Below, in pieces: positions 46,148 to 63,613 of a stretch of 64,000 nucleotides of DNA. Source of the DNA: Ensifer sp. BR816. Its GTDB lineage: Bacteria > Pseudomonadota > Alphaproteobacteria > Rhizobiales > Rhizobiaceae. The translations under genes were made by a program, and so were the position numbers. Under the pieces are notes generated by a model. It was not told the origin of the DNA. It saw only the letters and a list, made by a program, of their open reading frames with translations, and ran no database searches. Numbering within the stretch: position 1 is the first letter of the stretch; each line of letters starts with the position of its first letter. Where the stretch lies: positions 3,431,342 through 3,495,341 of the forward strand of contig NZ_KB905370.1 of NCBI RefSeq assembly GCF_000378985.1, in the 5' to 3' direction.

Positions 46148-46162
46148 ACAATACGACCTATG
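46148..46162 (+). promoter_or_regulatory. Module motif ACAATACGACCTATG
   Basis: Shares AATACGACCTA with the arms of the inverted repeat at 57350-57403, but the right half is degenerate (TATG instead of TAGGT). Candidate regulator site. Confidence 0.4.
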
Positions 46163-46218
46163 CACAATCGACAGAGGCGTTTCCGTCCGCATCGGGCCGC
46201 GGCCAGGCAGCCGCAGGC

Positions 46219-46233
46219 ATTACGACCAAGGTG
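46219..46233 (+). promoter_or_regulatory. Module motif ATTACGACCAAGGTG
   Basis: Shares TACGACC(A/T)AGGT with the other module sites; its centre is about 97 bp before the alcohol dehydrogenase start. Candidate operator for the LuxR-type regulator at 48163. Confidence 0.5.
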
Positions 46234-46322
46234 CAATATCCGTGCCTTTGGCTCGGGACGATGATCGAAGCCGCCAGACGGTTGCGGCAGCCGCAACTGA
46301 TGCGAGGGAAGGAGACATCGAT

Positions 46323-48089
46323 ATGAACAGATTGATGCTGACTGCCGTGACGGTCCTGTCACTGGCGGGAATGGCCCAGGCGGAGGTGACGGAAGAGGAT
46401 CTCGCCAAGGACGCGACTACGGTCAGCGATGTGCTGACGAACGGCATGGGGAGAGGCCTGCAGCGCTTTTCTCCGCTCGAGACGTTGAACAAGAACAACG
46501 TCAAGAACCTCCTGCCTGCCTGGGCCTTCAGCCTCGGCGGCGAAAAGCAGCGGGGACAGGAAAGCCAGCCGATCGTCCATGACGGCGTAATGTATGTCAC
46601 GGCCTCCTACAGCCGGCTCTTTGCCATCGACATCAAGACCGGCAAGGAGCTTTGGCAGTTCGACGCGCGGCTGCCCGAAGGCATCCTGCCCTGTTGCGAT
46701 GTGGTCAATCGCGGCGCGGCGATCTACGGCGACAACATCTATTTCGGGACGCTCGACGCCCGTCTCGTCGCCCTGAACCGCAAGACGGGCGATGTGGTTT
46801 GGAACAAGAAGATCGCCAACTACAAGGAAGGCTATAGCTACACGGCCGCGCCGCTGATCGTGGACGGCCTCGTCATCACCGGTAATTCCGGCGGCGAGTT
46901 CGGCGTTGTCGGCGAGGTGCAGGCGCGCGACGCCAAGACCGGCGAGCTGGTGTGGACACGCCCGGTCATCGAAGGACACATGGGCACCTACAAGGGCAAG
47001 GAAAGCTCGATGACCGGGACGCTGAACGCGACCTGGCCGGGAGACCTGTGGAAGACTGGCGGCGGCGCCACCTGGCTCGGCGGCTCCTACGACGCCGACA
47101 CCGATACGCTGATCTTCGGCGCAGGCAACCCCGCCCCATGGAACAGCCACCTGCGCAACGCCGGCAAGCCGGTCGAAGGCAACAAGGGCGACAACCTCTA
47201 TGCCGCGAGCCGTCTCGGCATCAACCCCGAAAACGGCGAGATCAAGTGGCACTTCCAGACGACGCCAAGAGAAGGCTGGGATTTCGACGGCGTCAACGAG
47301 GTCGTTCCGTTCATCTCCAAGGACGGCAAGAAGCGGTTCGCGACCGCCGACCGGAACGGCTTCTTCTACATCCTCAACCGCGAGGACGGGAAGTTCGTAG
47401 CCGCCTATCCTTTCGTCAAGAACATTAGCTGGGCGAAGGGCATCGATGAGAATGGCCGCCCCATCTACGTGGAGGAAAACCGCCCCGGCGACCCCACCGT
47501 GGCCGCCGATGGCGGCAAGGGACAGCAGGTCTTCGCGGTACCGTCGTTCCTCGGCGGCAAGAACTGGATGCCGATGGCCTACAGCCAAAAGACCGAGCTC
47601 TTCTACGTGCCATCGAACGAGTGGGGCATGGACATCTGGAACGAACCCATCTCCTACAAGAAGGGCGCGGCCTATCTCGGTGCCGGCTTCACGATCAAGC
47701 CGCTCTTCGAGGACTATATCGGCTCGCTGAAGGCTATCGACCCGAACAGCGGCGAGATCAAATGGGAATACAAGAACGGTGCGCCCCTTTGGGGCGGGGT
47801 GATGGCGACGGCGGGCGGACTGGTCTTCGTCGGGACGCCCGAGGGTGACTTCAAGGCGCTCGACGACGAGACCGGCGAGGTTCTCTGGTCCTTCCAGACC
47901 GGGTCGGGGGTCGTCGGCCAGCCCGTCACCTGGGAGCAGGACGGCGAGCAATATGTGTCGGTGATCTCCGGCTGGGGGGGCGCTGTGCCGCTCTGGGGCG
48001 GCGAAGTCGCGAAGAAGGTCAACTATCTCAACCAAGGTGGTATGGTGTGGACCTTCCGTTTGCCAAAACAACTGGCTTCGGCACAATAG
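46323..48089 (+). CDS. PQQ-dependent alcohol dehydrogenase, lanthanide type (ExaF/PedH-like)
   Basis: The 588-residue quinoprotein has a signal peptide (1-20), an eight-bladed propeller with W-motifs, and the vicinal disulfide Cys124-Cys125 (PCCDVVNRG) near PQQ. Metal ligands are Glu192 (GGEFG), Asn269 (GAGNPAPWN) and catalytic Asp320 in GWDFDGVN. Asp322, two residues later, is the extra Asp that marks lanthanide-dependent enzymes; calcium enzymes such as MxaF have Ala there. Sequence feel and neighbours favour the ethanol dehydrogenase type (ExaF/PedH) over XoxF. ATG 46323 has AAGGAGA upstream. It oxidises alcohols in the periplasm and passes electrons to a cytochrome c or cupredoxin. Confidence 0.9.
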
Positions 48090-48094
48090 AGGAT

Positions 48095-48130
48095 ACCGGG
48101 GCCGGGCTTTGGCAGCTGGCCCCGGTTTCT
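48095..48130 (+). terminator. Rho-independent-type terminator after the alcohol dehydrogenase
   Basis: ACCGGGGCC pairs perfectly with GGCCCCGGT, followed by TTTCT, five bases past the stop codon. It separates the dehydrogenase from the regulator. Confidence 0.7.
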
Positions 48131-48162
48131 CGCGACAACGGCAGAACAATGCGGAGCGCTCA

Positions 48163-48882
48163 ATGATCATCATCCGCAATTCCTTCCAGGCACCGCGGCC
48201 GACCCCACCGCAGGCCCTCCTCAAGCCCGTCGAGCTGCGATCGGCGCTGATCGTAGATGACCATCCCCTGTTCTGCGAGGCGCTGGCGATGACCCTGACT
48301 GGGCTCGTCGGCATCGAGGCGATCGACTCCGTCGGAACCCTGGACGCCGCGCTCGGCCGGTTGGAGGGGGATGCGCCGCCCGACGTCGTGGTGCTCGATC
48401 TCAATCTGCCCGACGTGAACGGGCTGGACGGCGTCGTGCGATTGAGGCAGGCGGCACCCAACATCCCGATCGTCGTTGTCTCGTCGTTGGACGAGCTGAG
48501 GGTCATTCGCGCCTTGCTCAAGGCGGGCATCAACGGCTTCGTGCCCAAGCACGCAGTTCGGGACGAATTTCGCGCCGCCTTCGCGGCGATCGCACGAGGC
48601 GAAATCTACGCCCCGCAGATGGCTCTGGAGCCGGGCGGCACCTCGCTATCCGACGACGCGATCGCCCGTCTGGGCCTCTTGACGCGCCAGCAGGCGAAGA
48701 TCCTGCAACTCGTCTGCTCCGGCCTGATGAACAAGCAAATTGCCTATGAGCTTTCCATCGCCGAGACCACAGTGAAGGCGCATGTCACCGCAATCATGCG
48801 TAAGCTGGGCGTTCAGACGCGGATGCAGGCCGTGTTATTTGCACAGGAGGCTCGGTTTACGGCGCTGACGCCGGAGGAATGA
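48163..48882 (+). CDS. LuxR/NarL-family response regulator (ErbR/AgmR-like)
   Basis: The 239-residue protein has a receiver domain (about 25-145) with Asp32, Asp33 and phosphoacceptor Asp79 (VVVLDLNLPDVNG), then a C-terminal LuxR helix-turn-helix (about 170-235, LTRQQAKILQLVCSGLMNK). It resembles the regulators ErbR/AgmR of quinoprotein ethanol oxidation in Pseudomonas. ATG 48163 follows GCGGAGCGC. Its partner is probably the hybrid kinase two genes downstream, and it is the natural candidate for binding the shared module motif. Confidence 0.85.
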   Translation: MIIIRNSFQAPRPTPPQALLKPVELRSALIVDDHPLFCEALAMTLTGLVGIEAIDSVGTLDAALGRLEGDAPPDVVVLDLNLPDVNGLDGVVRLRQAAPNIPIVVVSSLDELRVIRALLKAGINGFVPKHAVRDEFRAAFAAIARGEIYAPQMALEPGGTSLSDDAIARLGLLTRQQAKILQLVCSGLMNKQIAYELSIAETTVKAHVTAIMRKLGVQTRMQAVLFAQEARFTALTPEE

Positions 48883-48982
48883 TGTCTTCAGGATCCGAAG
48901 CTGCCGCCCTCGAGAGTTCGCAGCGTAAGCGCTGGATTCCGGAGCAGTAACGGCTTTACTCTGGTCGTGGGAGGAAGAGGGA

Positions 48983-50155
48983 ATGAGGACATTGGGCGGC
49001 ATCGCGCGGGAGACGATCGTCCCGCGCGCCAGCGTTCCATCGAGCGACCCTAACGCCGTGGAAACACTGGCGCGGCAACTCGGACCGGGACCTTTTTCGC
49101 TGATCATGCTCTTCGTTTCGCCGACGGCCGACCTCGAGCGCCTGCCCGCCGAGGCAGCGCGGGTCTTCGGCGACATCCCGATCATCGGCTGCACCACCGC
49201 GGGCGAGATTTCCCACACAGGCTATAACGACGACACCATTGTCGCGCTCGCCCTGCCCTCGGAATACTTCCGCATCGAAACGCTCACCGTCCCCAATCTG
49301 GTGCAGCTTGACCCGCCCGATCTCGCCGCCGCCCTCGTTCGAACGCGCGCGGCAATGGCCGACCGCTACCCCGAGCTTGCCCACGAGTTCGCAATTCTAC
49401 TGGTGGACGGGCTGTCGCAGAAAGAGGACGAGCTGACCTCGGCGCTCGCGGCAGGCATGGGAGCCACGCCGATGCTCGGCGGCTCGGCCGGCGACGGAAC
49501 GCGCTTCGCCCGGGCCTTCGTGCTCGACGGCCACCGGTTCTTGCAGAACGCGGCCGTGCTGGCGCTGGTGCGAACGGAATGCCCGGTCCGCGTCTTCAAT
49601 TTCGATCATCTCATACCGACGGAAAAGCGCATGGTGGTGACAGAAGCCGATCCCCGCCGCCGCATCGTCCGCCAGATCAACGCCGAACCCGCCGCAGGAG
49701 AGTATGCACGCCTCGTCGGCATGGATCCCGAACAGCTCAGCACCTTCACATTCGCGGCCCATCCCGTTGCCGTGCGCATGGGAACGCGGCACCACGTGCG
49801 CGCCATCCGTCAAGTAATGGAGAGCGGCGATCTTGTCTTCTTTTCGGCCATCGACGAGGGCGTCGTGCTGACGATTACCGAGCCCGGAGACCTGATCGGC
49901 CAGCTCGGCCGCGAACTCACCCGCCTGTCCTTGCCGGAGCGCCCGACCGCGATCCTTGCCTTCGACTGCATCCTGCGCCGGCTGGAGGCTGAGGAAAAGC
50001 AGATCGTGGGTCGCGTCTCCGAGCTTCTGCGTCGCCACGGCGTCATCGGCTTTTCGACCTATGGCGAGCAGTTCGGTCCGATGCACGTGAACCAGACGAT
50101 GACCGGTGTCGCGATCTATCCGCCAGGCACCGCACTATCCGAGAAGGTTCCGTGA
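48983..50155 (+). CDS. FIST-domain sensor protein
   Basis: The 390-residue soluble protein has FIST_N (about 35-230, IPIIGCTTAGEISHTGY) and FIST_C (about 235-375) domains. FIST proteins are thought to bind small ligands and work with signalling partners; a FIST gene next to a hybrid kinase is also found in the Pseudomonas exa region (PA1975-ercS'). GGAGGAAGAGG precedes the ATG, and the stop overlaps the kinase start (TGATG). Confidence 0.88.
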   Translation: MRTLGGIARETIVPRASVPSSDPNAVETLARQLGPGPFSLIMLFVSPTADLERLPAEAARVFGDIPIIGCTTAGEISHTGYNDDTIVALALPSEYFRIETLTVPNLVQLDPPDLAAALVRTRAAMADRYPELAHEFAILLVDGLSQKEDELTSALAAGMGATPMLGGSAGDGTRFARAFVLDGHRFLQNAAVLALVRTECPVRVFNFDHLIPTEKRMVVTEADPRRRIVRQINAEPAAGEYARLVGMDPEQLSTFTFAAHPVAVRMGTRHHVRAIRQVMESGDLVFFSAIDEGVVLTITEPGDLIGQLGRELTRLSLPERPTAILAFDCILRRLEAEEKQIVGRVSELLRRHGVIGFSTYGEQFGPMHVNQTMTGVAIYPPGTALSEKVP

Positions 50156-52359
50156 TGGCCCGCATCTCCGACTGGCTAATCGATCCTGCCGACAACGCCG
50201 AGCGCAACAAGGAGAAGCTTCTGACCATCGCCGAAGTGCTGATGCGCCAGGTCGAGCAGGCTTCCGGCGACCGGGGGATCGCCTACGAGCAGTTCCAGCG
50301 CGCCGCGCTGCTGGAGGAGCGGGTCCGACAGCGCACGTCCGATCTTGAATCGACGCTGAAGGTGCTGAACGACACGAACGCGCGGCTCGCCGACGCCAAC
50401 AGCGCGACCGAGCTTGCTCGCCGCAACCTGGCCGACGCCATAGAGGCCGTGGAAGAAGGCTTCGCCCTCTTCGATGCCGGCGAATTCCTGGTGATGTACA
50501 ACTCCCGTTTCTGCCGCGATCTCCAGGATGTGCGCGCCATTCTTCGCCCCGGCCTGCCGTTTGCGGACTACGTCGGAGCCGCCAGCCGTTCGCGCTTTCT
50601 CGCCTTGCCGGAGGACGAAACGCCGGCCGACTGGATGGCGACACGGATGCAGCGCCATCGCACACGTAGCGTCTTCAAAGTCGCGCTTGTCGGGGACCGT
50701 TGGCTTCAGATCAGCGAACAGCCGACGTCCGACGGCGGTACCGTCGTTCTCCAGACAGACGTCACCGAGATCATACGCATGGAGCGAAGCGAGCGCGGCA
50801 GGATGTTGGATGACCAGGCCCGGCTGATCCGCGCGACGCTGGAACATATCAACCAGGGCATCTGCATCTTCGACTCCGACGGTCGACTGGTCGGCTGGAA
50901 CGAGCGGCTCCGCCTGCTGCTCGACATTCCGGTGACCGTGTTGCGCACCGGCACGGGGTTCGACACGCTGCAGCGGTGGATTCATCGCGACAGCGAACTC
51001 GTCAGCGGTATCACTCCGTCGGGCCTTGCCGCCTGGGCGGTGCAGAAGACACCGCGGGCGCCCCTCTCCCTGGAGATCCGGCGCGCCTCGGGAATGATCC
51101 TCGTGGTTTTCGCCGAGGCGACGCCGGATCGAGGCTTCGTAATGTCCTTTGCCGACGTCACGCGCGAACGCTTGGCAATCCAGGCGATGCAGCGCGCCAA
51201 TGCCTCGCTCGAAGCGCGGGTGGCAGCCCGTACCGAAGATCTGCGCGCCGCCCTTGCCGATGCAGAGCGTGCCAATTCCACCCGCGCACGTTTTGTCGCG
51301 GCCGCCAGCCATGACCTCCTGCAACCGCTGTCCGCCGCCAAGCTCTTCGTCGCCTCGGCCCGTGACGAGATGGACGACGATCACGCCGGCAGCACCCTGG
51401 ACAAGGCTCACAAGGCGCTGGCAAGCGTGGAGGCGATCCTCGGCGCCCTGCTCGACATCTCGCGGCTGGACGAGGCGATCGTCGAGATTTCGCCCGTGCG
51501 CCTTGCGCCGCTGATCGCCCAGCTCACCGACGAGTTTGCGCCGATGGCCGACCGCAAGGGTTTGAAGCTTGCGATCCTGCCCTGTGCACTGACGGTTTAC
51601 AGCGACCCGTCCTATTTGAGGCGCATTCTGCAAAACCTTATCGGCAATGCGATCCGCTACACGCGCACGGGCCGCGTGCTCGTGGGACCGCGGCGGATGC
51701 CGGCGGGTGTCCGCATCGAGGTGCACGATACCGGTCCCGGCATCCCCGCAGAAGAACAGCGGGCGATCTTTCGCGAGTTCCACCGATTGAACGCCTCGGC
51801 TTCCGCCTCCGAAGGCCTGGGGCTCGGCCTCGCCATCGTCGAGCGCGCCTGCGCTCTGCTCAATCACCGACTGACGCTGCGCTCGACGCCGGGGCGCGGC
51901 ACATGCTTTGCCATCGAGTTGCGACAGGCGCCGGTACACGCCCCTGCAAGCTACCATCGAGGTGACGCTGTGGAAGACGGATCGCCGGGCGACGGCGGCG
52001 ATCGGATCGCACTTCTCATCGAAAACGACGAGGAGCTGCGCCACGCGATAAGCCTGCTTCTGGAGCGTCGCGGCATCACCGTCCTCGAGGTCGCAAGCGG
52101 TGAGGAAGCGCTGGAGCTGGTCGATGAGATGGGCATCGTGCCCGACCTCTATCTGGTCGACCAGCAGCTCGGCGACGGACTGACGGGCGTCGAAACATTG
52201 AAGGCCCTCAAGATACGCCACGGCGACCGGCCGGCGAGGATCATCACCGCCGACAGGACGCCGGGCGTTCGTGAGGCCTGTGCCGAGGCCGACGTCGAGA
52301 TCATCTACAAGCCCATCGACCCCGAGGTGCTCGAAGCCTTCGTCGCCCGAGCAGGATGA
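50155..52359 (+). CDS. Hybrid histidine kinase with PAS domains and C-terminal receiver
   Basis: The 734-residue protein has no clear membrane segment. A coiled-coil-like stretch (about 40-95) precedes two PAS-like domains (about 95-220 and 225-350), a HisKA domain with His386 (AASHDLLQPL), a HATPase domain (about 490-600, with HDTGPGIP and GLGLGLAIV) and a receiver domain (about 615-734) with phospho-Asp669 (YLVDQQL). The layout matches ErcS'-type kinases of the Pseudomonas ethanol-oxidation network. ATG 50155 overlapping the FIST stop is preferred to GTG 50152. Confidence 0.9.
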   Translation: MARISDWLIDPADNAERNKEKLLTIAEVLMRQVEQASGDRGIAYEQFQRAALLEERVRQRTSDLESTLKVLNDTNARLADANSATELARRNLADAIEAVEEGFALFDAGEFLVMYNSRFCRDLQDVRAILRPGLPFADYVGAASRSRFLALPEDETPADWMATRMQRHRTRSVFKVALVGDRWLQISEQPTSDGGTVVLQTDVTEIIRMERSERGRMLDDQARLIRATLEHINQGICIFDSDGRLVGWNERLRLLLDIPVTVLRTGTGFDTLQRWIHRDSELVSGITPSGLAAWAVQKTPRAPLSLEIRRASGMILVVFAEATPDRGFVMSFADVTRERLAIQAMQRANASLEARVAARTEDLRAALADAERANSTRARFVAAASHDLLQPLSAAKLFVASARDEMDDDHAGSTLDKAHKALASVEAILGALLDISRLDEAIVEISPVRLAPLIAQLTDEFAPMADRKGLKLAILPCALTVYSDPSYLRRILQNLIGNAIRYTRTGRVLVGPRRMPAGVRIEVHDTGPGIPAEEQRAIFREFHRLNASASASEGLGLGLAIVERACALLNHRLTLRSTPGRGTCFAIELRQAPVHAPASYHRGDAVEDGSPGDGGDRIALLIENDEELRHAISLLLERRGITVLEVASGEEALELVDEMGIVPDLYLVDQQLGDGLTGVETLKALKIRHGDRPARIITADRTPGVREACAEADVEIIYKPIDPEVLEAFVARAG

Positions 52360-52442
52360 GGAGTGCGTATGCGGCATTGCGCCCGCATCCGCGTCTCAAT
52401 CTATCTGAAGCAATCATCTTTTGACCCTCCACCGTTTCGACC

Positions 52443-52459
52443 GGCACCAAGGTCGCATT
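52443..52459 (-). promoter_or_regulatory. Module motif (minus strand AATGCGACCTTGGTGCC)
   Basis: Aligns base for base with AATACGACCTAGGTACC of the repeat arm at 57356, with three substitutions. It lies about 68 bp before the pseudoazurin gene. Confidence 0.45.
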
Positions 52460-52518
52460 GCATCGCCCTGCCCTTTCGATGTTTGCTTTTGTCAGTTTCA
52501 AACCGCAGGGAGAGATGA

Positions 52519-52953
52519 ATGCTGAGAAGAATGGGTATCATGGCGGCGATCGTGCTCGTTGCCGGCGGGGCCTTCGCTGGGGAGCACGAAGTGAAGATGC
52601 TGAACAAGGGAGAGAGCGGAGCCATGGTTTTCGAGCCGGCCTTCGTGAAAGCCGAGCCCGGCGACACGATCCGCTTCCTGCCGGCCGACAAGGGCCACAA
52701 TGTCGAGTCGATCAAAGGCATGCTGCCCGACGGCGTGGACAAGTTCAAAAGCAAGGTCAACGAGGAATACGTGATGACGGTCACAGTGCCCGGCCTCTAC
52801 GGCGTCAAATGCTCGCCGCACTTCTCCATGGGGATGGTGGCACTGATCCAGGTGGGCGATGTGCCGGTCAACGCCGAAGCCGTGAAGGCGGTGAAACTGC
52901 CGAAGAAGGCCGACGAACGGCTGAAAGCCGCGCTTTCCGGCGCGGCGCTTTGA
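52519..52953 (+). CDS. Pseudoazurin (blue copper protein)
   Basis: The 144-residue precursor has a signal peptide (1-20) and a cupredoxin fold with copper ligands His60 (KGHNVES), Cys98, His101 and Met106 ([10 protein letters not shown]). Pseudoazurin shuttles electrons in the periplasm, commonly to nitrite and nitrous oxide reductases. Here it sits within the alcohol-oxidation module, with a copy of the module motif upstream, and could link the dehydrogenase to NosZ or an oxidase. GGGAGAGATGA precedes the ATG. Confidence 0.92.
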
Positions 52954-53040
52954 GCAGTCGGAACCCACAAATTCTCGGCGCCGCGCGTCTCACAAGAGCC
53001 GCGGCGTCGTAACGTTTTGATCGATTCAAGATGACCTTCG

Positions 53041-53949
53041 CTATTGGATTTTCCGGCCGGCAAGTTCGCGCGCCGGATCATAGCCCCAGATCGCACCAGC
53101 GCCGAAGACCGCGAGCGCCACGATCGTAACAGCAAGGGCGAGCGGCTCGGATTTCGCATGGAGGGCGAAACGGATGAGTTCCACCGCATGTGTGAACGGA
53201 TTGACGGCGCAGATGTCACGCAGACGCGGCGAGGCTTCTGCCATCTTCCACAGCGGATAAAGGGCGGATGAGAGAAAGAAGACCGGGAAAATGACGAAGT
53301 TCATCACGCCGGCGAAGTTTTCCAACTGGCGGATGAACGAGGAAAGTACAAGCCCCAGCGCCCCTACCATCAGCGCGGCAAGCATGATCGCAGGAAAAGC
53401 GGCAAGGTATCCGCCCAACGTGAAGCGGATTCCCCAGGCTGCTGCCACGGCGAGAAAGACGTAGGCCTGCAGTACCGAGATCAGACTGCCGGCGACGAGC
53501 TTGCATGCCAGCAGCCACCAACGTGGCGGCGGGGCGGTCAGCAACAGACGCATCGAACCCATTTCGCGGTCGTAGACGAGGCTCAGCGAGGACTGCATGC
53601 CATTGAACAGAAGGATCATGCCGACGAGGCCGGGGGTGATATATATCTCGTAGGTAATGTAGGTCTGGTAGGGCGGCGTGATCGAAAGGCCGAGCGCAGC
53701 GCGGAACCCAGCGGCGAAGACAATCAACCATACGAGCGGACGCACGAGCGCCGCAAGAAGGCGGCCCCGCTGGCCGAGAAAACGCAGCGCTTCCCGCTTG
53801 AGGATTGCGCCGAGGGCGACTGCGGCCCGATGAGAAAGGGCGTGCGCAGCTTTCCGCCTGACATCCCCGTCCAGATCGTCGGCATCGACGACGTTCAAGA
53901 CCTCTGGTCGGTGCGGCGCGAAAGCGTCCCGATCTGGCGCGACGTTCAT
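53041..53949 (-). CDS. ABC-2-type permease of the PQQ-alcohol-dehydrogenase cluster (PedC-like)
   Basis: The 302-residue inner-membrane protein has about six hydrophobic segments in an ABC-2 arrangement, after a soluble N-terminal region of about 55 residues. Genes of this type accompany PQQ alcohol dehydrogenases in many proteobacteria (the PedC type); the substrate is unproven. It overlaps the ATPase gene by ATGA and converges on pseudoazurin. Confidence 0.87.
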   Translation of the reverse strand: MNVAPDRDAFAPHRPEVLNVVDADDLDGDVRRKAAHALSHRAAVALGAILKREALRFLGQRGRLLAALVRPLVWLIVFAAGFRAALGLSITPPYQTYITYEIYITPGLVGMILLFNGMQSSLSLVYDREMGSMRLLLTAPPPRWWLLACKLVAGSLISVLQAYVFLAVAAAWGIRFTLGGYLAAFPAIMLAALMVGALGLVLSSFIRQLENFAGVMNFVIFPVFFLSSALYPLWKMAEASPRLRDICAVNPFTHAVELIRFALHAKSEPLALAVTIVALAVFGAGAIWGYDPARELAGRKIQ

Positions 53950-54653
53950 GAGTGAGCTCCCGTTAAGGCGATGAACCGGCCGGAGAGATCGCCTCCGCCG
54001 ATCTCTCCGGCCTCGCCGGTGTCAAGCACGCGGCCGCGATGCAGAATGACGAGCCGGTCCGGCGGCCGGATCTCGTCCACGAGGTGGGTCGCCCAGAGCA
54101 CGGTCAGGCGGTCCTCGGCGGCAAGGCGATGTACATGGTCGACGATGGCGACGCGAGCGGCGGCATCGAGGCCGACAGTAGGCTCGTCGAGGAGCAGGAC
54201 CGACGGGCGATGTATGAGCGCGCGCGCAATCTCCATCCGTCGCCGGTGGCCGCCGTTGAGCGCTCCGGCCCGTTCGCCGGCACGTTCCGCCATTCCGAGC
54301 CGTTCGAGAACCGCCGTTACCCGCATCTCGGCTCGGCGTCCGGCAAGGCCATGCAACGCAGCGAAGTAAAGTAGATTGCGCCGGACCGTCAGATCGAGGT
54401 CGATGGTCGGCTGCTGGAAGACGACACCGATGAGCTGAAGAGCGGCATACGGATTACGCGCAAGGTCGTGGCCGGCAACAAAAATGCCTCCGGCTCGCGG
54501 CGTGAAGAGCCGGGTCAGCAGACCGAAAAGCGTCGACTTGCCGGCGCCATTCGGCCCGAGCAATGCGCAAAACTGACCCGGTACAACGGAAAAACTGACC
54601 TCTTCAAGGGCGCGCCGCGTGCCCCAATCATGCGTGATCGCCTCGACCTTCAG
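53946..54653 (-). CDS. ABC ATPase of the PQQ-alcohol-dehydrogenase cluster
   Basis: The ATPase domain shows Walker A LLGPNGAGKST, an altered signature NGGHRRRMEIARAL (N for the usual S) and Walker B VLLLDEPTVGLD. The first in-frame TTG (54563) would cut off the N-terminal strand, yet the frame continues upstream as LKVEAITHDWGTRRALEEV, typical for the family. No ATG, GTG or TTG exists in that extension; CTG 54653, preceded by a G-rich stretch, is the best guess and gives 235 residues. The stop overlaps the permease start. Confidence 0.8.
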   Translation of the reverse strand: MKVEAITHDWGTRRALEEVSFSVVPGQFCALLGPNGAGKSTLFGLLTRLFTPRAGGIFVAGHDLARNPYAALQLIGVVFQQPTIDLDLTVRRNLLYFAALHGLAGRRAEMRVTAVLERLGMAERAGERAGALNGGHRRRMEIARALIHRPSVLLLDEPTVGLDAAARVAIVDHVHRLAAEDRLTVLWATHLVDEIRPPDRLVILHRGRVLDTGEAGEIGGGDLSGRFIALTGAHS

Positions 54654-54670
54654 CCCCCCACAGTCGCCCC

Positions 54671-55126
54671 CTATTCGATGGTAATGGCCACCCTCTGCAG
54701 TGCGCCGCTGGTGCCCGGCACCTTCATCTCGTAGCTGCCCGGCCGGACGGCGATGAAGCTGATCTCTGCCTCGCCCGCTTCGTCGAACTCCAGCGAATCG
54801 ACGCCGAGCGGGCGCACCTCGATGCCTTCAATGACGATCTCGTTCACCCAGATCGCGCGGAAGAACCCAGCGCCTTCGAGCGCCAGTTCCTGGCTTCCGT
54901 CCGCCTCTATCTTCAGCTTGTAGTATGTTCCGGACTTCAGCCTCATCGGCTCGGAGGTGAGCGCCGCACCGGCAGCAAGGGTCAGCTTCGGCAGGTCCTT
55001 CCGGTTGGGCGCGGAAAGCAGCCCGGCAAGACCCGCATGCGCCGCCTCGTCAGCCTCCTCGGCGGTGGCGACAACCGTTGGCAAGACCATGGCCAGCATC
55101 ATTGCAAGCAAGATCGTATGCCTCAT
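54671..55126 (-). CDS. Exported hypothetical protein of the alcohol-oxidation cluster
   Basis: The 151-residue protein has a signal peptide (about 1-21) and a predicted beta-rich domain. GTYYKLKIEADGSQELAL and RPGSYEMKVPG give it a cupredoxin-like look, but no copper Cys is present (there is no Cys in the mature part). It lies between the beta-propeller gene and the ABC ATPase on one strand and is presumably a periplasmic partner of the same system. Function unknown. Confidence 0.75.
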   Translation of the reverse strand: MRHTILLAMMLAMVLPTVVATAEEADEAAHAGLAGLLSAPNRKDLPKLTLAAGAALTSEPMRLKSGTYYKLKIEADGSQELALEGAGFFRAIWVNEIVIEGIEVRPLGVDSLEFDEAGEAEISFIAVRPGSYEMKVPGTSGALQRVAITIE

Positions 55127-55152
55127 CCTCTTCTCCTTGGTTCTGAAAGCCG

Positions 55153-56121
55153 CTACGGCCGCATCGCCGCGCCCCAGGGGAAACGCCCAACCTTGACCGA
55201 CTTTATCGGCTCGCGCGCGGCCACATCGACCGCCGTCACGTCGCCCGAGACGCCGTTTGTTGTGAAAAGCTGTTGGTGGTCCGGCGAAAAGGCTACGTGC
55301 CAGACGCGTCGACCGACCAGAACGTATCCTTCAACCTCGAATGTCGTCATGTCGACCACAGCGAGGTGGTTTGCCGGGCCAAGCGCGACGAACGCCGCCT
55401 TGCCATCGGGCGTGAAATCGAAACCGACGGGCTGGATGAGATCGGCATTGATGCCCGTGATACCAAAGCCGATCTTGCTCTTCTCCGACCGCGTGGCGAC
55501 GTCGAACACCGTCACCGTGCCTCCGATCTCGGAGGAGACCCAGAGTTCCTTGCCGTCCTTGGTGAACTCCGCATGGCGCGGCCGGCTGTCGACGAGCGTG
55601 TTCGCAACGATCTTCATCGTCGTCGTGTCGATCCAGTGGGCCATGTTGGTCGTCTCCGACGTCGCCACCACAAGCTTGCCATCGGGCGATACGGCCATGC
55701 CTTCCGGCTCGATGCCGACATTGATCTGCGCCACGACCTCCCTCGTCTCGACATCGACGACGGTCGTTACCGCATCGTCCTCGTTGGCGATCCAAAGGTG
55801 CTTGTCGTCGGGGGCGAGAACGAACTGTTCCGGATCCTCCCCGGAGGGCAGCTCGTGAAGGACCTCACCCGTCTTGGGATCCATCACCTGCACCGCGTCG
55901 CTGTCCGATGCGCAGATGTAGACGCGCGAGTGGTCGGAGTTGAACGTGATGCCACGCGGGCGCTCGCCCGTCTCGATCGTGCGGACGACTTCAAGCGTCG
56001 TGGTGTCTATGACCGAGATATTGTCGTCCTTCTCGTTGGTGACCCAGATTTCGCCGGCAGCCGCGGTAAGGGGAACCGCGGCAACAGCGACGACAACCGA
56101 GCAAGGAAACAGCGATCTCAT
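55153..56121 (-). CDS. Periplasmic YVTN beta-propeller protein associated with PQQ catabolism
   Basis: The 322-residue protein has a signal peptide (about 1-22) and seven YVTN-type repeats (EIWVTNEKDDNISVID, HLWIANEDDAVTTV and similar), matching the PQQ-dependent catabolism-associated beta-propeller family. It has no PQQ dehydrogenase W-motifs or catalytic residues, so it is probably a binding or scaffolding protein. ATG 56121 overlaps the upstream gene's stop (ATGA), which fixes the start. Confidence 0.87.
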   Translation of the reverse strand: MRSLFPCSVVVAVAAVPLTAAAGEIWVTNEKDDNISVIDTTTLEVVRTIETGERPRGITFNSDHSRVYICASDSDAVQVMDPKTGEVLHELPSGEDPEQFVLAPDDKHLWIANEDDAVTTVVDVETREVVAQINVGIEPEGMAVSPDGKLVVATSETTNMAHWIDTTTMKIVANTLVDSRPRHAEFTKDGKELWVSSEIGGTVTVFDVATRSEKSKIGFGITGINADLIQPVGFDFTPDGKAAFVALGPANHLAVVDMTTFEVEGYVLVGRRVWHVAFSPDHQQLFTTNGVSGDVTAVDVAAREPIKSVKVGRFPWGAAMRP

Positions 56122-57305
56122 CTCATCCCCCCAAAGGCCGCGCACGCGCTCTCCGCCCGATCGAGGCCGAGCGTGTCCATCTCGTTTTCCTGGTGCAGAA
56201 AGCCGTCGAGCGGCGCGAGCTCGACCAGGGCGCGCGCGTTGACCACCGGCATCGGCTGGCGCAACTGGCCGTTCCAATCACGATAGCTGAGGGAACGGCC
56301 CTTGAAACCGTCGAGGGCAAAGGCATCCGACAGGATGTAGGCCTTGAGCTTCCCCGGATCGGTGGAGTTCGTCCGCGTCACCGCCTCCCCGACGGTGCGG
56401 AGCGCCGCCCAGGCGGCGTAGTCGCGCGACCGCATCTCCCGCTTGGCAACGCTTTCGAAGCGGTTCTGCAACTGGACGGCACCCCATTGCTCCAGAACGG
56501 GCGCCCATGCCTCACCGCGCAAGCCGTCGGAGCCGGCGATCGGGCGGGGCAGCCAGGTGTTGTCGCCGACATACCGGGCGAAGTCGTCGGTCTCGTCGGC
56601 AATGAGAACGACGTCGTGGTCCGGCAAGTCCTGGGTGAAAAGCGGGACCTCCTTGCCGGCGGCGCGCCTGAGATCCGTGTCGAAGGTCCAAGCCTTTTCG
56701 GCGAGGATTTCGACACCGAACTTTGCCGCCGCGGCACGTAAGGTGGCAGCGAAGGCCTCGTCCCGCGGTCGGGGGCCGACGATCAGGGCGGTGCGCGTCC
56801 AGCGGCGCGCCTTCAGCACCTGCATCAGCGCATCGGCTCGCATCGCGTCCTCGGCGATCGTGTGCAGAAGATTGGGCCGGCAGTCGGCGTCGCGCAGGCG
56901 GCGCTCGCCGGATGCGACGTTGAAAATCAGCGCGCCCTTGGCGTCCGGCAAGTCGGCGACGGCCAGAACGCTCTCGGCAGAGGCATCGAGCAGCAGGACG
57001 GACGAGGCGGCGAGCGCCTTCTTCGCCGCCCCGGCAAGATCACCTCCGGGCGCAACGGAAACCACCTGCAGCTTGTAGTAATGGCCGAGAAAGCTGCCGG
57101 TCGTCTCGGTGTCGGCGAGAGCAACCTGGGCCCCGGCGATCCCCAGGTCCGCGGGGATCGGATCGAGATTGGAAAGCACCGGCGGCGCCTTCTCCTCGTG
57201 ACGCAGGTACGTCAAGGCAATCGTGATCTCCGCCTGCGCGGGAGCGCCAAGAAGCGCGATGAGCAGGCAGGCTGGCACGCTTCGAATGCCGCGGTTTTTT
57301 GGCAT
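56118..57305 (-). CDS. Periplasmic binding protein, branched-chain type, of the PQQ-alcohol cluster
   Basis: The 395-residue protein has a signal peptide (about 1-25) and a periplasmic binding protein type 1 fold (EITIALTYLRHEEKAPP at the mature start). This family accompanies PQQ alcohol dehydrogenase ABC systems. The start codon ATG 57305 has GGAGGAG upstream. It heads the minus-strand operon binding protein-propeller-hypothetical-ATPase-permease, transcribed from the divergent region with the 19-bp inverted repeat. Confidence 0.86.
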   Translation of the reverse strand: MPKNRGIRSVPACLLIALLGAPAQAEITIALTYLRHEEKAPPVLSNLDPIPADLGIAGAQVALADTETTGSFLGHYYKLQVVSVAPGGDLAGAAKKALAASSVLLLDASAESVLAVADLPDAKGALIFNVASGERRLRDADCRPNLLHTIAEDAMRADALMQVLKARRWTRTALIVGPRPRDEAFAATLRAAAAKFGVEILAEKAWTFDTDLRRAAGKEVPLFTQDLPDHDVVLIADETDDFARYVGDNTWLPRPIAGSDGLRGEAWAPVLEQWGAVQLQNRFESVAKREMRSRDYAAWAALRTVGEAVTRTNSTDPGKLKAYILSDAFALDGFKGRSLSYRDWNGQLRQPMPVVNARALVELAPLDGFLHQENEMDTLGLDRAESACAAFGGMR

Positions 57306-57349
57306 TGGATACTCCTCCCGCACACGAGCTTAAGGCGGACAGCGCGGAG

Positions 57350-57403
57350 CGCGGAATACGACCTAGGTACCATGCCAGGCCGCGACCTAGGTCGTATTCC
57401 GCG
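57350..57403. promoter_or_regulatory. 19-bp perfect inverted repeat in the divergent promoter
   Basis: The arms 57350-57368 (CGCGGAATACGACCTAGGT) and 57385-57403 are exact reverse complements, separated by 16 bases. Each arm ends in the palindrome ACCTAGGT. The repeat lies between the binding-protein operon (start 57305) and the cytochrome c550 gene (start 57456), so it could be an operator for both. Operator function is inferred. Confidence 0.6.
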
Positions 57404-57455: not shown

Positions 57456-58142
57456 ATGTCCAGGAATCGTTTCCGCGCCGGGCTTGTGGCGCTCACACTT
57501 CTGGCGACTGCGACGATCGTCGTCGCGCATGGTGACGTCGCGCCCCAGCCGGTCAACACCGACGCACTACCGGATGTCGGTGAGGAATGGCTCACCGAAA
57601 ACCCCTATCGCGAGGCCGCGGTCGGACGTGACGTCTGGCTGAAAGCCGTCGAGATCGGCGCGTCCGGATTCACCCAGAATTGCGCCCGCTGTCATGGGCT
57701 TGGCGCCGTATCCGGTGGGCTCGCCCCGGATCTCCGGCTATTGGAAGCGGAGGAATACGGCGACGAATGGTTCATCGAGCGTTTCCGCGACGGCTACACC
57801 CAGGACGGCACGACCAAGATGCCGGCCTTTGGCGACGTTCTCGGCCAGAAGGCCGCCTGGGCGATCCGCACCTATATAGAGACGCGGCCGGAAGACGGGG
57901 CGCTCGACGATCATGCGGACCGGTTGCACGAAGTCAGAGACGAGCTTGCTTCCGCCAAGGTCGAGGACCCCAAGGCGCTGAAAGCCGAGCTTGAGAAAAT
58001 CGCGGCCGAGGTCAAGACAGCCTCCGGTGCGCCGGTTGCCGACAGCGTCGCCTACGAGGCGGCCCGAATCCTCGCCGAAACGCCGGAAAGCTGGAAAAAG
58101 GCGAGCGAAATCCTCACCGTCGGGCTTTCGGCGACGGAGTGA
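57456..58142 (+). CDS. pedF: Cytochrome c550, PedF type
   Basis: The 228-residue periplasmic cytochrome has a signal peptide (about 1-25), a heme motif CARCH (Cys76, Cys79, His80), and Met in TKMPAFGDVL as the probable sixth ligand, followed by a helical C-terminal extension of about 80 residues. It is the likely electron acceptor of the PQQ alcohol dehydrogenase. GGAGGAGG before the ATG defines the start; the frame is open far upstream but antisense to the binding-protein gene. It is co-transcribed with the next gene (gap 3 bp). Confidence 0.9.
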   Translation: MSRNRFRAGLVALTLLATATIVVAHGDVAPQPVNTDALPDVGEEWLTENPYREAAVGRDVWLKAVEIGASGFTQNCARCHGLGAVSGGLAPDLRLLEAEEYGDEWFIERFRDGYTQDGTTKMPAFGDVLGQKAAWAIRTYIETRPEDGALDDHADRLHEVRDELASAKVEDPKALKAELEKIAAEVKTASGAPVADSVAYEAARILAETPESWKKASEILTVGLSATE

Positions 58143-58145
58143 GCG

Positions 58146-59062: not shown

Positions 59063-59399
59063 CCGCACCATTGACTTGCTTCAACTTGATTGTTGTCGTT
59101 GGAAAGCAAGGCATCGCGGAGCGGCAGCAACTGGATTCCAGATGCAAGCTGCTATCCCGCCCTGTGGCGCAAGCCCCTCATGATCCGGAAGCGGTCTCAA
59201 ATCTCGATGGCGAGCAGCGGGGAGCGGGACCTGGTCGGTGTGCCCAGGCAAACCATTCGACCTTGCGGGTGGCTTCGGAAAACACGCGAGAACTCGCCCT
59301 TGCGATTGGCGCCCCGATCGAGGATCTCTACCGGAATAGCAAGAACCAACCGGAATCGGCTGTCGCCACGACAAGGCCGACGCTCAAAAGCGAAATAGG

Positions 59400-59915
59400 C
59401 GCCGCTCATCCCCATGGCCTGCAGGGCCTCGGCGTTGCGGCGGCCGGCCTCAATGAACTCGGCGCGGCTTCCTCCGAGCTGAGCCAGCCGCTGCATCGGC
59501 TGCCGCAGCGTCACCTCGCTGACCAGTGTCAGGGCGATCAGGATCACCGCGCCGGCGACGGCGAGCCAGCCGAGATAGGCATGGAACAGGAAGAGGATCG
59601 CGAGATAAACCGGCAGCCACGGCATGTCGCAGATCGCGACCGGGCCCTGCCCGCTCTTGAACTGGCGGACCTGGTCGAGATCGCGCAGCGGCTGCGAGAT
59701 CGCCTCCTCCTTCGACATCCGAAGCGGCAGCTTCAGGACGGTATCGAAGGTCGCACCGCCCAGCTCCTCCTCAAGCCGCTGGCCGATCTGGGTGAGGATT
59801 CGTGAGCGGATGACTTCCAGGGAGGCCGAGAAACAGATAGAGGCCGATCGCGAGGATCGACAGCGCCACCAGCGTCGGCACGCTGCGGCTGGCGAGCACC
59901 CAGTGTGCGCCCGAG
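59400..59915 (-). pseudogene. Relic of a type I secretion ABC transporter (PrtD/HlyB-like)
   Basis: On the minus strand, fragments of the membrane domain of a type I secretion permease/ATPase are readable. They run in order: HWVLASRSVPTLVALSI, then (after a one-base frameshift near 59825) LEVIRSRILTQIGQRLEEE, then SKEEAISQPLRDLDQVRQF and MPWLPVYLAI..., ending near ALQAMGM. The N terminus and the whole ATPase domain are missing. Flanking sequence (59063-59400 and 59915-60044) shows nothing recognisable. It is a decayed remnant, probably of an earlier rearrangement. Confidence 0.7.
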
Positions 59916-60044
59916 ACGGAGGACGTCCTGGCCGAGCCGATCCTGATCGTGCCGACCTGGATCATGAGAGTTCGCCGGAGCTTGTCTTCGCTGGCCGACA
60001 GTCCACTCCATACCTTGTCAGGGCGACGATACCTATGAACTGGC

Positions 60045-61169
60045 TTATCGGCCGCGATAGACGAAATCGACTGATGGTGTCGCCGCAAGCGCGTCCGCTT
60101 CGCGCGTCAGATGCTCGCGCAGCGGCGATCGGATGCAGACCGGATCGGTAGCGTTGGCATCGCCGGCAAGCGCCAGCGCCTGGCAGCGGCAACCGCCGAA
60201 ATCGACCGCCTTGCGCTCGCAGCTTCGGCAGAGATCCGGCATCCAATCGTCGCCGCGATAGGCGTTGAACGCATCACTGTCGTACCAGATCCTGGCGAGC
60301 GAGCTTTCGCGTATGGTCTCGAAGGACAGGCCCGGAATGGTTTCCGCCGCATGGCACGGGAGCACCCGCCCCGAAGGCGTGACGTTCAGGCCCACCCTGC
60401 CCCAGCCGCCCATGCAGGCCTTCGGGTATTTCGAATAATAATCGGCCGGCACATAGTCGATCACCAGTATGCCCTGATAGTTTTCGCGCGCCTTCGCCAC
60501 GGTTCGCGTGGCGCGCTCGACCTGCTCGCGCGTCGGCATCAGCGCCGCCTTGTTGCGCTCTGCCCAGCCGTGGAACTGCACCGTCGCGATCTCGATCCTG
60601 CGTGCCTTCAACCGGACCGCCAAGTCGATCATGGCGTCGATCTCGCCCATGTTCTGCTTGTGGCAGACGGCATTGATCGTCAACGGGATGCCGGCATCCG
60701 CCGCCCAGCCCGCGACAGCCATCTTCCGCTCATACCCGCCGGCATATCCACTGATCCGATCGGCGCTTTCCGGCGAAATGCCCTGGATGGAAAGCTGGAT
60801 GTGGTCGAGCCCGGCATCGGCCAGGCTGGCAATTCGGGCCTCAGTCAAGCCCACGCCGGAGGTGATCAGATTGGTATAGAGCCCGAAGGAGACCGCTGCC
60901 CGGGTCAAGTCGACCAGATCCCTGCGCGCCGCTGGCTCGCCGCCGGACAAGTGCAGATGCAGGACGCCGAGATCGGCGGCCTGCTCGAAGACGCCGATCC
61001 ATGCCTCGGTCGAAAGCTCCTCATTTGCCCGCGTCAACGCGATCGGATTGGAACAGTAGGGACAAGCGAGCGGACAGCGATGCGTCAGCTCCGCCAGCAT
61101 CGCCATCGGCGGAGGCGCCCGCGGGGTTTTGCCCATGGCATCGGCTGTCAGCGTGATCGTATCGCTCAT
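60045..61169 (-). CDS. pqqE: PqqE, radical SAM PQQ synthase, copy 2
   Basis: The 374-residue enzyme has the radical SAM CPLACPYC motif and SPASM cysteines (CMGGWGRV, PCHAAE, LCRSCERKA, GGCRC). It is the paralogue of the gene at 42552-43670 and performs the same PqqA crosslinking. The ATG at 61169 overlaps the pqqD stop. Confidence 0.95.
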   Translation of the reverse strand: MSDTITLTADAMGKTPRAPPPMAMLAELTHRCPLACPYCSNPIALTRANEELSTEAWIGVFEQAADLGVLHLHLSGGEPAARRDLVDLTRAAVSFGLYTNLITSGVGLTEARIASLADAGLDHIQLSIQGISPESADRISGYAGGYERKMAVAGWAADAGIPLTINAVCHKQNMGEIDAMIDLAVRLKARRIEIATVQFHGWAERNKAALMPTREQVERATRTVAKARENYQGILVIDYVPADYYSKYPKACMGGWGRVGLNVTPSGRVLPCHAAETIPGLSFETIRESSLARIWYDSDAFNAYRGDDWMPDLCRSCERKAVDFGGCRCQALALAGDANATDPVCIRSPLREHLTREADALAATPSVDFVYRGR

Positions 61170-61462
61170 TCGACGATCTCCAGCATGCGGCGGATGGAAA
61201 GCTCCCGGACGAAGGCCATGACGTCCTCGGCAATCTGGGGTGCGGGAGCGTCGAATTTCTCCGCGAAATCAGCGGCGATCTGATCGAGAGTCCGCTCGCC
61301 ATCGAGGGCTTCGACGATGGCGACGGCGATATCGTCCACAGCCATCGCACGTTCCGGTGCCAAAAGGACCGTCTGACCGCGAACGGCGTCCTCGCGGAGC
61401 CGAACCCCTCGCGCGAGCTTCACGACGCTCGCCCCTGAAATCACCGGCCCATCCATGGTCAT
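61166..61462 (-). CDS. pqqD: PqqD, copy 2
   Basis: The 98-residue PqqA chaperone has the same length and pattern as copy 1 (KLARGVRLREDAVRGQTVLLAPE). ATG 61462 overlaps the pqqC stop. Confidence 0.93.
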   Translation of the reverse strand: MTMDGPVISGASVVKLARGVRLREDAVRGQTVLLAPERAMAVDDIAVAIVEALDGERTLDQIAADFAEKFDAPAPQIAEDVMAFVRELSIRRMLEIVE

Positions 61463-62217
61463 TCCGCCGCCGGCTCGCGAATCACCCCATCCCGGCCGTT
61501 CCAGGCTCCCGGCGGAATGCGGGCGGGTGCGACATAGGCCGAGTAAAGGGCGTCGAGCTGGGCCCAGAGAACATCCGTCTTGAAGGTGAGCGCAGCAGCC
61601 GCGGCATCCTGTTTTTCCCGCGTGTCGGCGTGATCGAGGACATAGCCTAGACCGAATTCGACGTCGCGCGGCGCCTCGGCCAGCCTTTGGCGGAAATAGG
61701 CCAGCGCGGCGTCATCGGCGAAGGCGTAGTGCTCCAACAGCCCGGCGATGCGTTCCGAATGGATCTTCGGCGCGAAAAGCTCGGTCAGCGAGGATGCCAC
61801 CGCCTCGAGGAGCGGCTTTTCCCGCACGAACGACACATAGGCGTCCACCGCAAATCGCGTCGCCGGCAGCACGCCCTTCGTCGAAGCGACGTAGCCGGGA
61901 TCGAGGCCGACGGCCTCGGCGAGACGCAGCCACCGCCGGATGCCACCCCCCTCCCCCAGGCCGCCATCATGATCCTCGATGCGGGAGCGCCAGGCGCGAC
62001 GCAGTTGGGGGTCGTCGCAACGCGACAGGAAGGCCGCGTCCTTCATCGGAATCCGGCTCTGGTAATAGTAGCGGTTGATCACCCAGGCGCGGACCTGCGT
62101 GATCGTGCAGCCGCCGCCATGCAGCATCACGTGAAAGGGATGCTTGTCGTGGTAGCGCTCCTTGCCGATCTGCAGAAGCCGGGCATGAAAATCTTGCTTG
62201 TCTGATGCTGTCGTCAC
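61459..62217 (-). CDS. pqqC: PqqC, pyrroloquinoline-quinone synthase, copy 2
   Basis: The 252-residue enzyme starts at a GTG that overlaps the pqqB stop (GTGA). The motifs HPFHVMLHGG and RAWVINRYYYQ are intact. The tract 61741-61932 is nearly identical to copy 1 (three differences in 192 bases counted by eye). Confidence 0.95.
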   Translation of the reverse strand: MTTASDKQDFHARLLQIGKERYHDKHPFHVMLHGGGCTITQVRAWVINRYYYQSRIPMKDAAFLSRCDDPQLRRAWRSRIEDHDGGLGEGGGIRRWLRLAEAVGLDPGYVASTKGVLPATRFAVDAYVSFVREKPLLEAVASSLTELFAPKIHSERIAGLLEHYAFADDAALAYFRQRLAEAPRDVEFGLGYVLDHADTREKQDAAAAALTFKTDVLWAQLDALYSAYVAPARIPPGAWNGRDGVIREPAAE

Positions 62218-63125
62218 GGGCGGACCTCCATGCCGTCGAACCCGACTTCGAAGCCGCAGCCCTCGACGCGTTCGCGCTCGGCTCCGGCCCGCCAGATCGG
62301 GTTCGTGTTGTTGATATGCACATAGATCGTGCGCCGGATGCCGAGGGCGCCAAGCGCATCGAGGCTGCCGCCCGCGCCGTCGATCGGCATATGGCCCATG
62401 CGGCGGCCGGTCTTGTGGCCTGTACCGGTCACGATCATCTCGTCATCAGAGAATAGGGTGCCGTCGAAGAACACCGCATCGGCGTCGCGGAGGCGCGCGA
62501 CAAGCCCCTCCGTCATCATGGCGCAGCCCGGAACATGGTAGACACGCTTGCCGTCAGCCTTGAGTTCGAGGCCGACCGTATGTTCGCCCTCGACATCGAG
62601 AGCCGGCTCGCCGTCTTCGAGGAAGAGCGGCACCTTGCCGGGAACGGCGAAGAACCGCACCTCAAGACCCGGAAGTGGAAAGAAAGCCTCTTCGAGGACG
62701 ACGATCCTCCTTGAAACCAGTTCCGGATCGAGAACCTGGAAGACCGGATTGTCCGTGATGATCCGGTCGACCGCGCCGGTCGAAAACAGCGTGAACGGCT
62801 GTTTCTCCCGCAGGACGAGGAGCCCGGCGAGATGATCGATGTCGCCATTGGTCAGCACCACGCTCCTGATCGGGCTGTGACGCAACCGGCGCGGCTGCAG
62901 CGGCCGATTGGCCCGCACTTGCTCACGGATGTCCGGAGAGGCGTTGAAGACCGCCCAGGCCTCACCGTCGAGACTCACCGCAAGCGACGACTGGCTCTGC
63001 GGCCTGAGGCCGGAGGCTGGATCGCGCGCCATCGAACAGTTGCGGCAGCCGCAATTCCATTGCGGGAGACCGCCGCCAGCGGCGGCCCCCAGAACGATGA
63101 TGCGAAGATCGGACGTCTTCTTCAC
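62214..63125 (-). CDS. pqqB: PqqB, copy 2, full length
   Basis: The 303-residue metallo-beta-lactamase-fold protein has the intact block ADAVFFDGTLFSDDEM that is missing from copy 1, plus QWNCGCRNC and TNGDIDHLAG. The start is GTG (the next codons AAG AAG ACG contain no ATG), which supports the GTG start in copy 1. It is likely the functional PqqB of the window. Confidence 0.95.
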   Translation of the reverse strand: MKKTSDLRIIVLGAAAGGGLPQWNCGCRNCSMARDPASGLRPQSQSSLAVSLDGEAWAVFNASPDIREQVRANRPLQPRRLRHSPIRSVVLTNGDIDHLAGLLVLREKQPFTLFSTGAVDRIITDNPVFQVLDPELVSRRIVVLEEAFFPLPGLEVRFFAVPGKVPLFLEDGEPALDVEGEHTVGLELKADGKRVYHVPGCAMMTEGLVARLRDADAVFFDGTLFSDDEMIVTGTGHKTGRRMGHMPIDGAGGSLDALGALGIRRTIYVHINNTNPIWRAGAERERVEGCGFEVGFDGMEVRP

Positions 63126-63169
63126 GGCAATCCCTGATGAGTTGGAGGCCGACCCTCGAAAGGCTGCGC

Positions 63170-63265
63170 CTAGAACAGGATCGGCTCATCCCCGTCCGCC
63201 GGAGCGTAGCGGGTGATTTCCATCGCGCAGCTGACTTCAATGAATTTCGGTTTATGCCAGGACAT
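63170..63265 (-). CDS. pqqA: PqqA, PQQ precursor peptide, copy 2
   Basis: The 31-residue peptide MSWHKPKFIEVSCAMEI... contains the Glu-x3-Tyr core EITRY. GGAGGAGAC lies directly before the ATG at 63265. It heads pqqABCDE copy 2. Confidence 0.93.
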   Translation of the reverse strand: MSWHKPKFIEVSCAMEITRYAPADGDEPILF

Positions 63266-63613
63266 GTCTCCTCCGTTCGTCCAGATCAGTGTGCCGCCCT
63301 GCATTGCCGGCGCCTTCGCAACCAGGTCGAACACGAAACAAGCTTTGCCCTCAGGCGCCGCTTGGTGAAAAGCCGGAACAGCCTTCCGCCGCACCGGCAA
63401 AGCCCGGCGTCGCCATCGCCGGGTTTTCGATCGCATCACGCCGCACGCAGCGCCTGGCGGCGGGGCGAACGGGAGACCACGCAAGTCCTCCTCCATGTTG
63501 AATGGTATCACGGTTCAAGGGCCTCACAATTAAGACCAAGGTGGCGGTCGACGCCGCGCTTGCGCGCGCCGAGGCCGAAACGTGGTGAATGGCGCCGGCT
63601 TTGGATGCCCGGC
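63266..63613. other. Intergenic region upstream of pqqA copy 2
   Basis: About 350 bp with no supported gene. It contains a variant of the module motif at 63526-63544 and must hold the pqq promoter. Confidence 0.45.
63526..63544 (+). promoter_or_regulatory. Module motif ACAATTAAGACCAAGGTGG
   Basis: Shares GACCAAGGTG with the site at 46219, and its left part (ACAAT) with 46148. It lies about 260 bp upstream of pqqA copy 2. Weakest of the set. Confidence 0.35.

Follow-up and report, generated by a model that had tools for sequence, protein, structure and literature searches.

The 64,000-nucleotide stretch of the Ensifer sp. BR816 genome (6.95 Mb in three contigs) analyzed here, called the window and used for all coordinates below, carries a module for pyrroloquinoline quinone (PQQ)-dependent alcohol oxidation whose operons are preceded by a shared palindrome. 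We consider it likely, with a probability of about 0.75, that this palindrome is the operator through which the two-component system encoded in the same cluster would activate the module. The motif has a 7-2-7 layout, TRCGACC-WW-GGTCGYA, in which two inverted half-sites of seven bases are separated by two bases, and its best copies read ATRCGACCWWGGTCGYAT. It lies 60 to 100 bp before the starts of the genes for the alcohol dehydrogenase (ADH), pseudoazurin, pedA, and pedF, it is conserved in related loci, and it co-occurs with one clade of response regulators, that of the regulator encoded at 48163-48882. The named loci nearest to the window are those of Ensifer and Sinorhizobium.

A sequence-only reading of this DNA had named six copies of the motif around the module. 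Searching the window for AATRCGACCWWGGTVCC with up to three mismatches gave nine matches against 1.54 expected, a number reached by none of 100 shuffles, so that the shared motif is confirmed. Six of the nine are the copies already named, and the others are at 23600 and 36625 (both below 7.5 bits) and at 63879 (10.9 bits). These scores come from a matrix of 16 columns derived from 35 distinct sites of 18 related clusters (L031-L048), with the window excluded. At 15 bits or more, this matrix found six strand-hits in the window, compared with 0.35 expected in order-2 Markov sequence, at five places (57382, 57356, 46220, 52443, and 63530), all of them in gaps of the PQQ/alcohol module. The claim that the motif precedes the operons of the module therefore holds for every strong site of the window, and the same operons carry it in the 18 related loci; of the six named copies, five places are strong and one, at 46148/46150, is weak.

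The copy before the ADH gene (46219-46235, plus strand, two mismatches, 21.7 bits at 46220) is centered 95.5 bp upstream of the ADH start, and the one before pseudoazurin (52443-52459, minus strand, no mismatches, 21.3 bits) is centered 68 bp upstream of its gene. Two copies share the divergent gap between pedA and pedF, where both arms of the motif had been reported: one on the pedA side (57355-57371, plus strand, no mismatches, 23.0 bits at 57356), with its center 58.5 bp from an approximate pedA start, and one on the pedF side (57382-57398, minus strand, one mismatch, 24.9 bits), 66 bp from the pedF start, whose core palindrome CGACCTAGGTCG also scores 17.5 bits on the opposite strand. Together they form an unstranded pair (57350-57403) with centers 26 bp apart and perfect inverted arms of 19 bases (57350-57368 and 57385-57403). 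An operator-like site before pqqA2 (63529-63545, plus strand, three mismatches, 16.7 bits at 63530) is indeed a weaker copy, with one core base changed and its center 272.5 bp from the pqqA2 start. The weak copy in the divergent gap between pqqA1 and the ADH gene (46150-46166, plus strand, three mismatches, 10.4 bits) is probably the pqqA1-side site, with its center 430.5 bp from the pqqA1 start. There are 15 matches of 10 bits or more in the 64 kb, and about four are expected by chance at the 10.4-bit level, so this copy has no significance by itself. The better of its halves (GGTCGTATTG toward pqqA) is found at the same place in Sinorhizobium kostiense and in Sinorhizobium fredii NGR234. A scan of 45550-53050 for the sigma-70 consensus gave two matches versus 1.0 expected and, therefore, no transcription start is claimed.

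To follow the motif in relatives, a single scan with the regulator returned at least 591 pattern matches and at least 523 relatives, from which the best 80 loci were kept, the nearest 18 (L031-L048) and 62 more distant ones (L049-L110). Among the nearest loci, 17 of 18 ADH genes and 17 of 17 pseudoazurin genes have the exact core upstream, and all 16 loci that hold pedF have it between pedA and pedF; NGR234 has the exact core at the first two of these places and a site at all three. Five loci (L036, L039, L042, L043, and L044) have a site ahead of pqqB, and a sixth (L041) has one at the corresponding place, although no pqqB match was found in that locus. A count of 8-mers made without reference to the motif led to the same element, since the commonest (ACCAAGGT/ACCTTGGT, present in 50 of 51 regions upstream of ADH, pseudoazurin, and pedF genes, with ca. 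1.5 expected) is the core of the motif. None of the 73 core sites (RCGACCWWGGT, palindromes merged) in the 18 loci falls within the coding sequences (CDS) of the module, which make up 64% of this DNA; the binomial P is 2e-33, an overstatement given the relatedness of the loci. As a control, the backward pattern gave three sites inside module CDS and none outside. These counts use homology-based gene calls, which replaced a crude calling of open reading frames (ORFs) that had placed 59 of 118 core sites outside ORFs, versus 2 of 21 for the backward pattern.

In the whole BR816 genome, where the sequence-only reading had asked for a motif search, 34 matches with at most one mismatch were found (4 in the window and 30 outside) compared with 20 for the backward pattern. 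Such matches are thus common in the coding DNA of this GC-rich genome, as they would be if the motif were a chance or compositional feature without function. However, this explanation is contradicted by the conservation at the same promoters and by the exclusion from module CDS and, together with the shuffles, these rule it out, leaving it a negligible probability. Twenty-six outside matches were opened (L004-L030 minus L017, the pedF site of the module itself), and 22 of them lie in predicted ORFs, which led us to reject a wide genomic regulon. The remaining four (L006, L012, L013, and L014), outside any predicted ORF, score 11.2 to 14.3 bits. The best outside matches, L018 (21.6 bits) and L004 (19.8 bits), are in weakly coding predicted ORFs that match no Pfam family and have a ParE-like gene and an integrase gene nearby. 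The regulon may have further members outside the module. The earlier statement that the motif is not inside genes is thus true of the strong window sites but not of the genome at large.

The product of the gene at 48163-48882 (plus strand) is an ErdR-like response regulator of the NarL/FixJ class, with both Pfam domains, Response_reg (PF00072) and GerE (PF00196), above cut-off. Its top NCBIfam match is ErdR (NF041830), at 159 bits and below the curated cut-off of 390, and NarL is its best match among solved structures. Across 81 sequences, the recognition-helix stretch IAETTVKAH.TAIMRKL varies at one column only (V/L/I). A search for pedF found 5 bearers among 385 genomes of the class and 15 among 394 of the family; since BR816 was counted in both, 18 other pedF-bearing genomes remain. 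Nine of them code for an ortholog of the regulator (53 to 76% identity), while in the other nine nothing above 43% identity passed an E value of 1e-40. A site was found in the pedF promoter of all nine genomes with the ortholog and in one of the nine without it (Fisher P of 0.0004, uncorrected for relatedness), with scores of 12.5 to 24.4 bits in the former and, except for genome G510, no more than 5.1 bits in the latter. In random 300-bp windows of the same loci, the 95% level was 11.3 bits and the 99% level was 22.8 bits, the latter inflated because site-bearing windows were included. In G618 and G655, two of the nine without the ortholog, a different regulator (42% identity) is encoded no more than 6 kb from pedF and the site is absent, an indication that the site is tied to the clade of the window regulator. 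From these sequence patterns, the palindrome is probably the binding site of the regulator at 48163, as had been proposed when it was described simply as a LuxR regulator; the co-occurrence at the pedF promoter supports this assignment, and paralogs with similar recognition helices weaken it. A palindrome of this length would fit regulators of several families, and a protein outside the NarL/FixJ kind could bind it, the linked regulator then having other targets. Nevertheless, this is very improbable given the 7-2-7 layout, the resemblance to the experimentally tested motif of ErdR/CrbR, and the joint occurrence of the site and the clade of the linked regulator.

Several observations weigh against the assignment of the palindrome to the linked system. 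The ErdR model gives 216, 204, and 159 bits to three other regulators of BR816, below its cut-off in each case; two weaker ones exist, and the K-A-H segment of the recognition helix is common to two of the three. The pedF promoter of G510 (locus L143) has a palindromic site of 17.8 bits, and no ortholog of the regulator was found in that genome (best match 43%, in an assembly that is 93% complete). Of the nine ortholog-bearing genomes, six correspond to loci on which the matrix was trained and one more (G685) is a closely related Shinella; therefore, only G060 and G284 are really independent, and their sites (16.1 and 12.5 bits) are only moderately above the 95% level of the random windows. 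Among the negatives, G207 and G083 are partial pedF matches, one of them with a stop. The pqqA sites are weak or altered, and they are distant from the start codons. Finally, 40 of the 62 more distant loci have no exact core in the fetched flanks (22 hold at least one), and among the 19 in which an ADH match stands just before the regulator, only two (L089 and L094) have a core within 120 bp of that match. In these distant loci, the site is found mainly at pedF/pedA and other genes, with 3 of 32 merged sites in homologous CDS, and the pedA/pedF site is kept in part of the Rhodobacterales loci.

Three Rhodobacterales loci have a core site just before the gene of a nosR-like membrane protein (L060:10805, L066:14982, and L067:14971). 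The protein has 27 to 30% tblastn identity to NosR, and the L066 copy, the one scanned against Pfam, matches Fer4_5. The gene is a possible further member of the regulon.

The genome codes for a second set of regulator (RR2, at C1:3526100), FIST protein, and hybrid kinase (C1:3516100-3536000, L131), near the gene of S-(hydroxymethyl)glutathione dehydrogenase (flhA). It has the gene order of the window set, with a FIST protein and a NahK-like kinase, and RR2 has a similar recognition helix. In all 16 genomes of the genus that were opened, the flhA promoter carries CACTAAGGTCGCAATTG without variation, which contains the half-site of the palindrome, and a second GGTCGC stands 20 bp upstream of it, intact in 13 of the 16. 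These resemblances would be expected if a paralog, above all RR2, were the main reader of the palindrome and alcohol and C1 metabolism shared a single regulon, which we regard as unlikely. With 11.0 bits, the flhA element is a poor match to the matrix, and its arrangement is not that of the palindrome; the distribution of the two regulators in the genus also speaks against this reading. An ortholog of the window regulator (at least 84% identity) is found in 10 of 33 genomes, BR816 included, and each of these carries strict 14-mer sites in the cluster. In total they have 34 strict sites, 26 of them no more than 15 kb from the regulator gene; of the eight elsewhere, five were opened and all five are in ORFs. 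RR2-like matches (38 to 42% identity, E value of about 1e-50 or better) are present in 27 of the 33 genomes, and the window regulator is missing from 19 of these 27. Yet the 23 genomes that do not have this regulator hold only 21 strict palindromes, and of the 14 opened, 10 are in ORFs, among them genes that resemble metK and mutT in translation, and four are outside called ORFs, one abutting a start codon. In a tree whose deeper forks are partly unresolved, the RR2 sequences group together with full support (100/100), separately from the window regulator.

At flhA the half-site is present without the tight palindrome; cross-talk may thus occur, and a separation by geometry is suggested. Tentatively, two paralogous circuits could read the same half-site (GGTCGY) and be kept apart by its arrangement: the alcohol circuit would use the tight inverted pair (7-2-7) and the formaldehyde circuit two tandem sites of half strength, 20 bp apart, at flhA, with pseudoazurin beside cytochrome c-550 in the alcohol regulon. 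If so, pseudoazurin, a blue-copper carrier, would partner alcohol oxidation alongside cytochrome c-550.

For the window regulator as reader of the palindrome, we infer the following circuit. The hybrid kinase (50152-52359) would sense a signal of alcohol oxidation and phosphorylate the regulator, with the FIST protein perhaps tuning the kinase. The regulator would then dimerize on TRCGACC-WW-GGTCGYA upstream of the promoters and activate the ADH gene, pseudoazurin, pedF, pedA/B/C, and both pqqA operons, as well as its own gene if the genes behind ADH are cotranscribed with it. A single switch would thus turn on the enzyme, its cofactor, the transporter, and the electron carriers jointly. The palindrome is a candidate operator for the regulator-FIST-kinase (FlhR/AfdR-like) family, for which our literature search, mostly without subscription journals, found no alphaproteobacterial binding site.

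Expression data for NGR234, in the part of the published transcriptome available to us (PMC3732241), lend the regulon independent support. In Leucaena bacteroids, the ADH gene reached 1367 reads per kilobase per million mapped reads (RPKM), versus 20 in Vigna bacteroids and 29 in free culture, and pseudoazurin reached 449 RPKM versus 20 and 11, respectively. Cytochrome c550 (186 versus 5 to 6 RPKM) and the pqq genes (169 to 580 versus 4 to 19 RPKM) also rose in Leucaena bacteroids, and the pseudoazurin-kinase-FIST-regulator row showed a like trend (PMC3732241). Gene order suggests that NGR_b03130 is pedF. This joint rise, the conservation of the site, and its avoidance of CDS favor the predicted PQQ/alcohol regulon including pseudoazurin, which would place this protein in alcohol oxidation rather than in denitrification only. 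The question raised with the nodule transcriptome, whether the linked signaling genes control the PQQ genes (PMC3732241), thereby receives a possible answer.

The module occupies 45.6 to 63.3 kb of the window and comprises the ADH, regulator, FIST, hybrid kinase, and pseudoazurin genes, a pedA/B/C-type transporter, pedF, and two pqq clusters that each include a pqqA gene. Its assignment to PQQ/ped alcohol oxidation rests on models above cut-off for the PQQ ADH, PedF, the PedA/B/C-type transporter, and PqqA. On the plus strand are the PQQ-dependent dehydrogenase of the methanol/ethanol family (46323-48089; TIGR03075, 773 bits, above cut-off), the NosP-like FIST-domain protein (48983-50155; 374 bits versus a cut-off of 450), the NahK/ErcS-like hybrid histidine kinase with PAS and receiver domains (50152-52359; NCBIfam scores under curated cut-offs), pseudoazurin (52519-52953; TIGR02375 above cut-off), and pedF, which codes for cytochrome c-550 (57456-58142; TIGR04494 above cut-off). 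On the minus strand are the operon of the pedA/B/C-type ATP-binding cassette transporter (53041-57323; TIGR03861, TIGR03863, and TIGR03866 above cut-off, TIGR03864 just below) and the precursor peptides pqqA1 (45633-45728) and pqqA2 (63170-63265), both above the TIGR02107 cut-off. The leaders upstream of pqqA1 and pqqA2 (45728-45900 and 63265-63440, minus strand) are conserved between the two copies and with NGR234 and S. kostiense, and they contain a G+C-rich inverted repeat. A special RNA fold was rejected for the pqqA2 leader, the copy folded, since it was no better than shuffles (z of -0.44), and there was no Rfam match at the gathering threshold anywhere in the window.

The operators of NarL in Escherichia coli have the same 7-2-7 layout, with two inverted half-sites of seven bases that begin with TAC and a gap of two bases. 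Their half-site letters differ from those of the window motif, and they serve the nitrate regulon. Another parallel is the ACTU motif of CrbR (ErdR) in Pseudomonas, located at -52 to -36 of acs and needed for activation, as shown by mutation and heterologous expression (PMC5715377). Both motifs are inverted repeats of imperfect symmetry that lie just before the promoter, and ACTU serves activation by a LuxR-family response regulator (PMC5715377), as the window site probably does. Many copies of the window motif combine one perfect and one partial half-site. The six sequences that we chose among 23 (Table 4 of PMC5715377) all align with the window motif in one register, with P values versus shuffles of 0.0055 or less. 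However, ACTU is looser, since our matrix gives only -0.9 and 0.9 bits to two of the six, and it controls acetate genes (acs and actP), whereas the predicted targets of the window motif are the PQQ/alcohol module and pseudoazurin. Unlike ErdR/CrbR, the window regulator is below the cut-off of the ErdR model and is linked to a FIST gene.

In gene layout, the window resembles FlhRS of Paracoccus denitrificans and AfdRS/RfdRS of Rhodobacter sphaeroides, which, as described in the accessible text, have an extra ORF between the regulator and kinase genes and control C1/alcohol oxidation (PMC4776306, PMC8879981); the window genes show the same row of regulator, intervening ORF, and kinase (PMC4776306). 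The comparison is one of layout and description, and those systems control formaldehyde dehydrogenase, a neighborhood that in BR816 belongs to RR2. The ped cluster of Pseudomonas (PedS/PedR, AgmR, and ErdR) likewise places PQQ ADHs under response-regulator control and has a PedA1A2BC transporter, and a question concerning NosP and NahK is discussed for it in the portion of the source at hand, in which no operator is given (PMC12997753). By comparison, the presence of pseudoazurin in the module distinguishes the clusters analyzed here.

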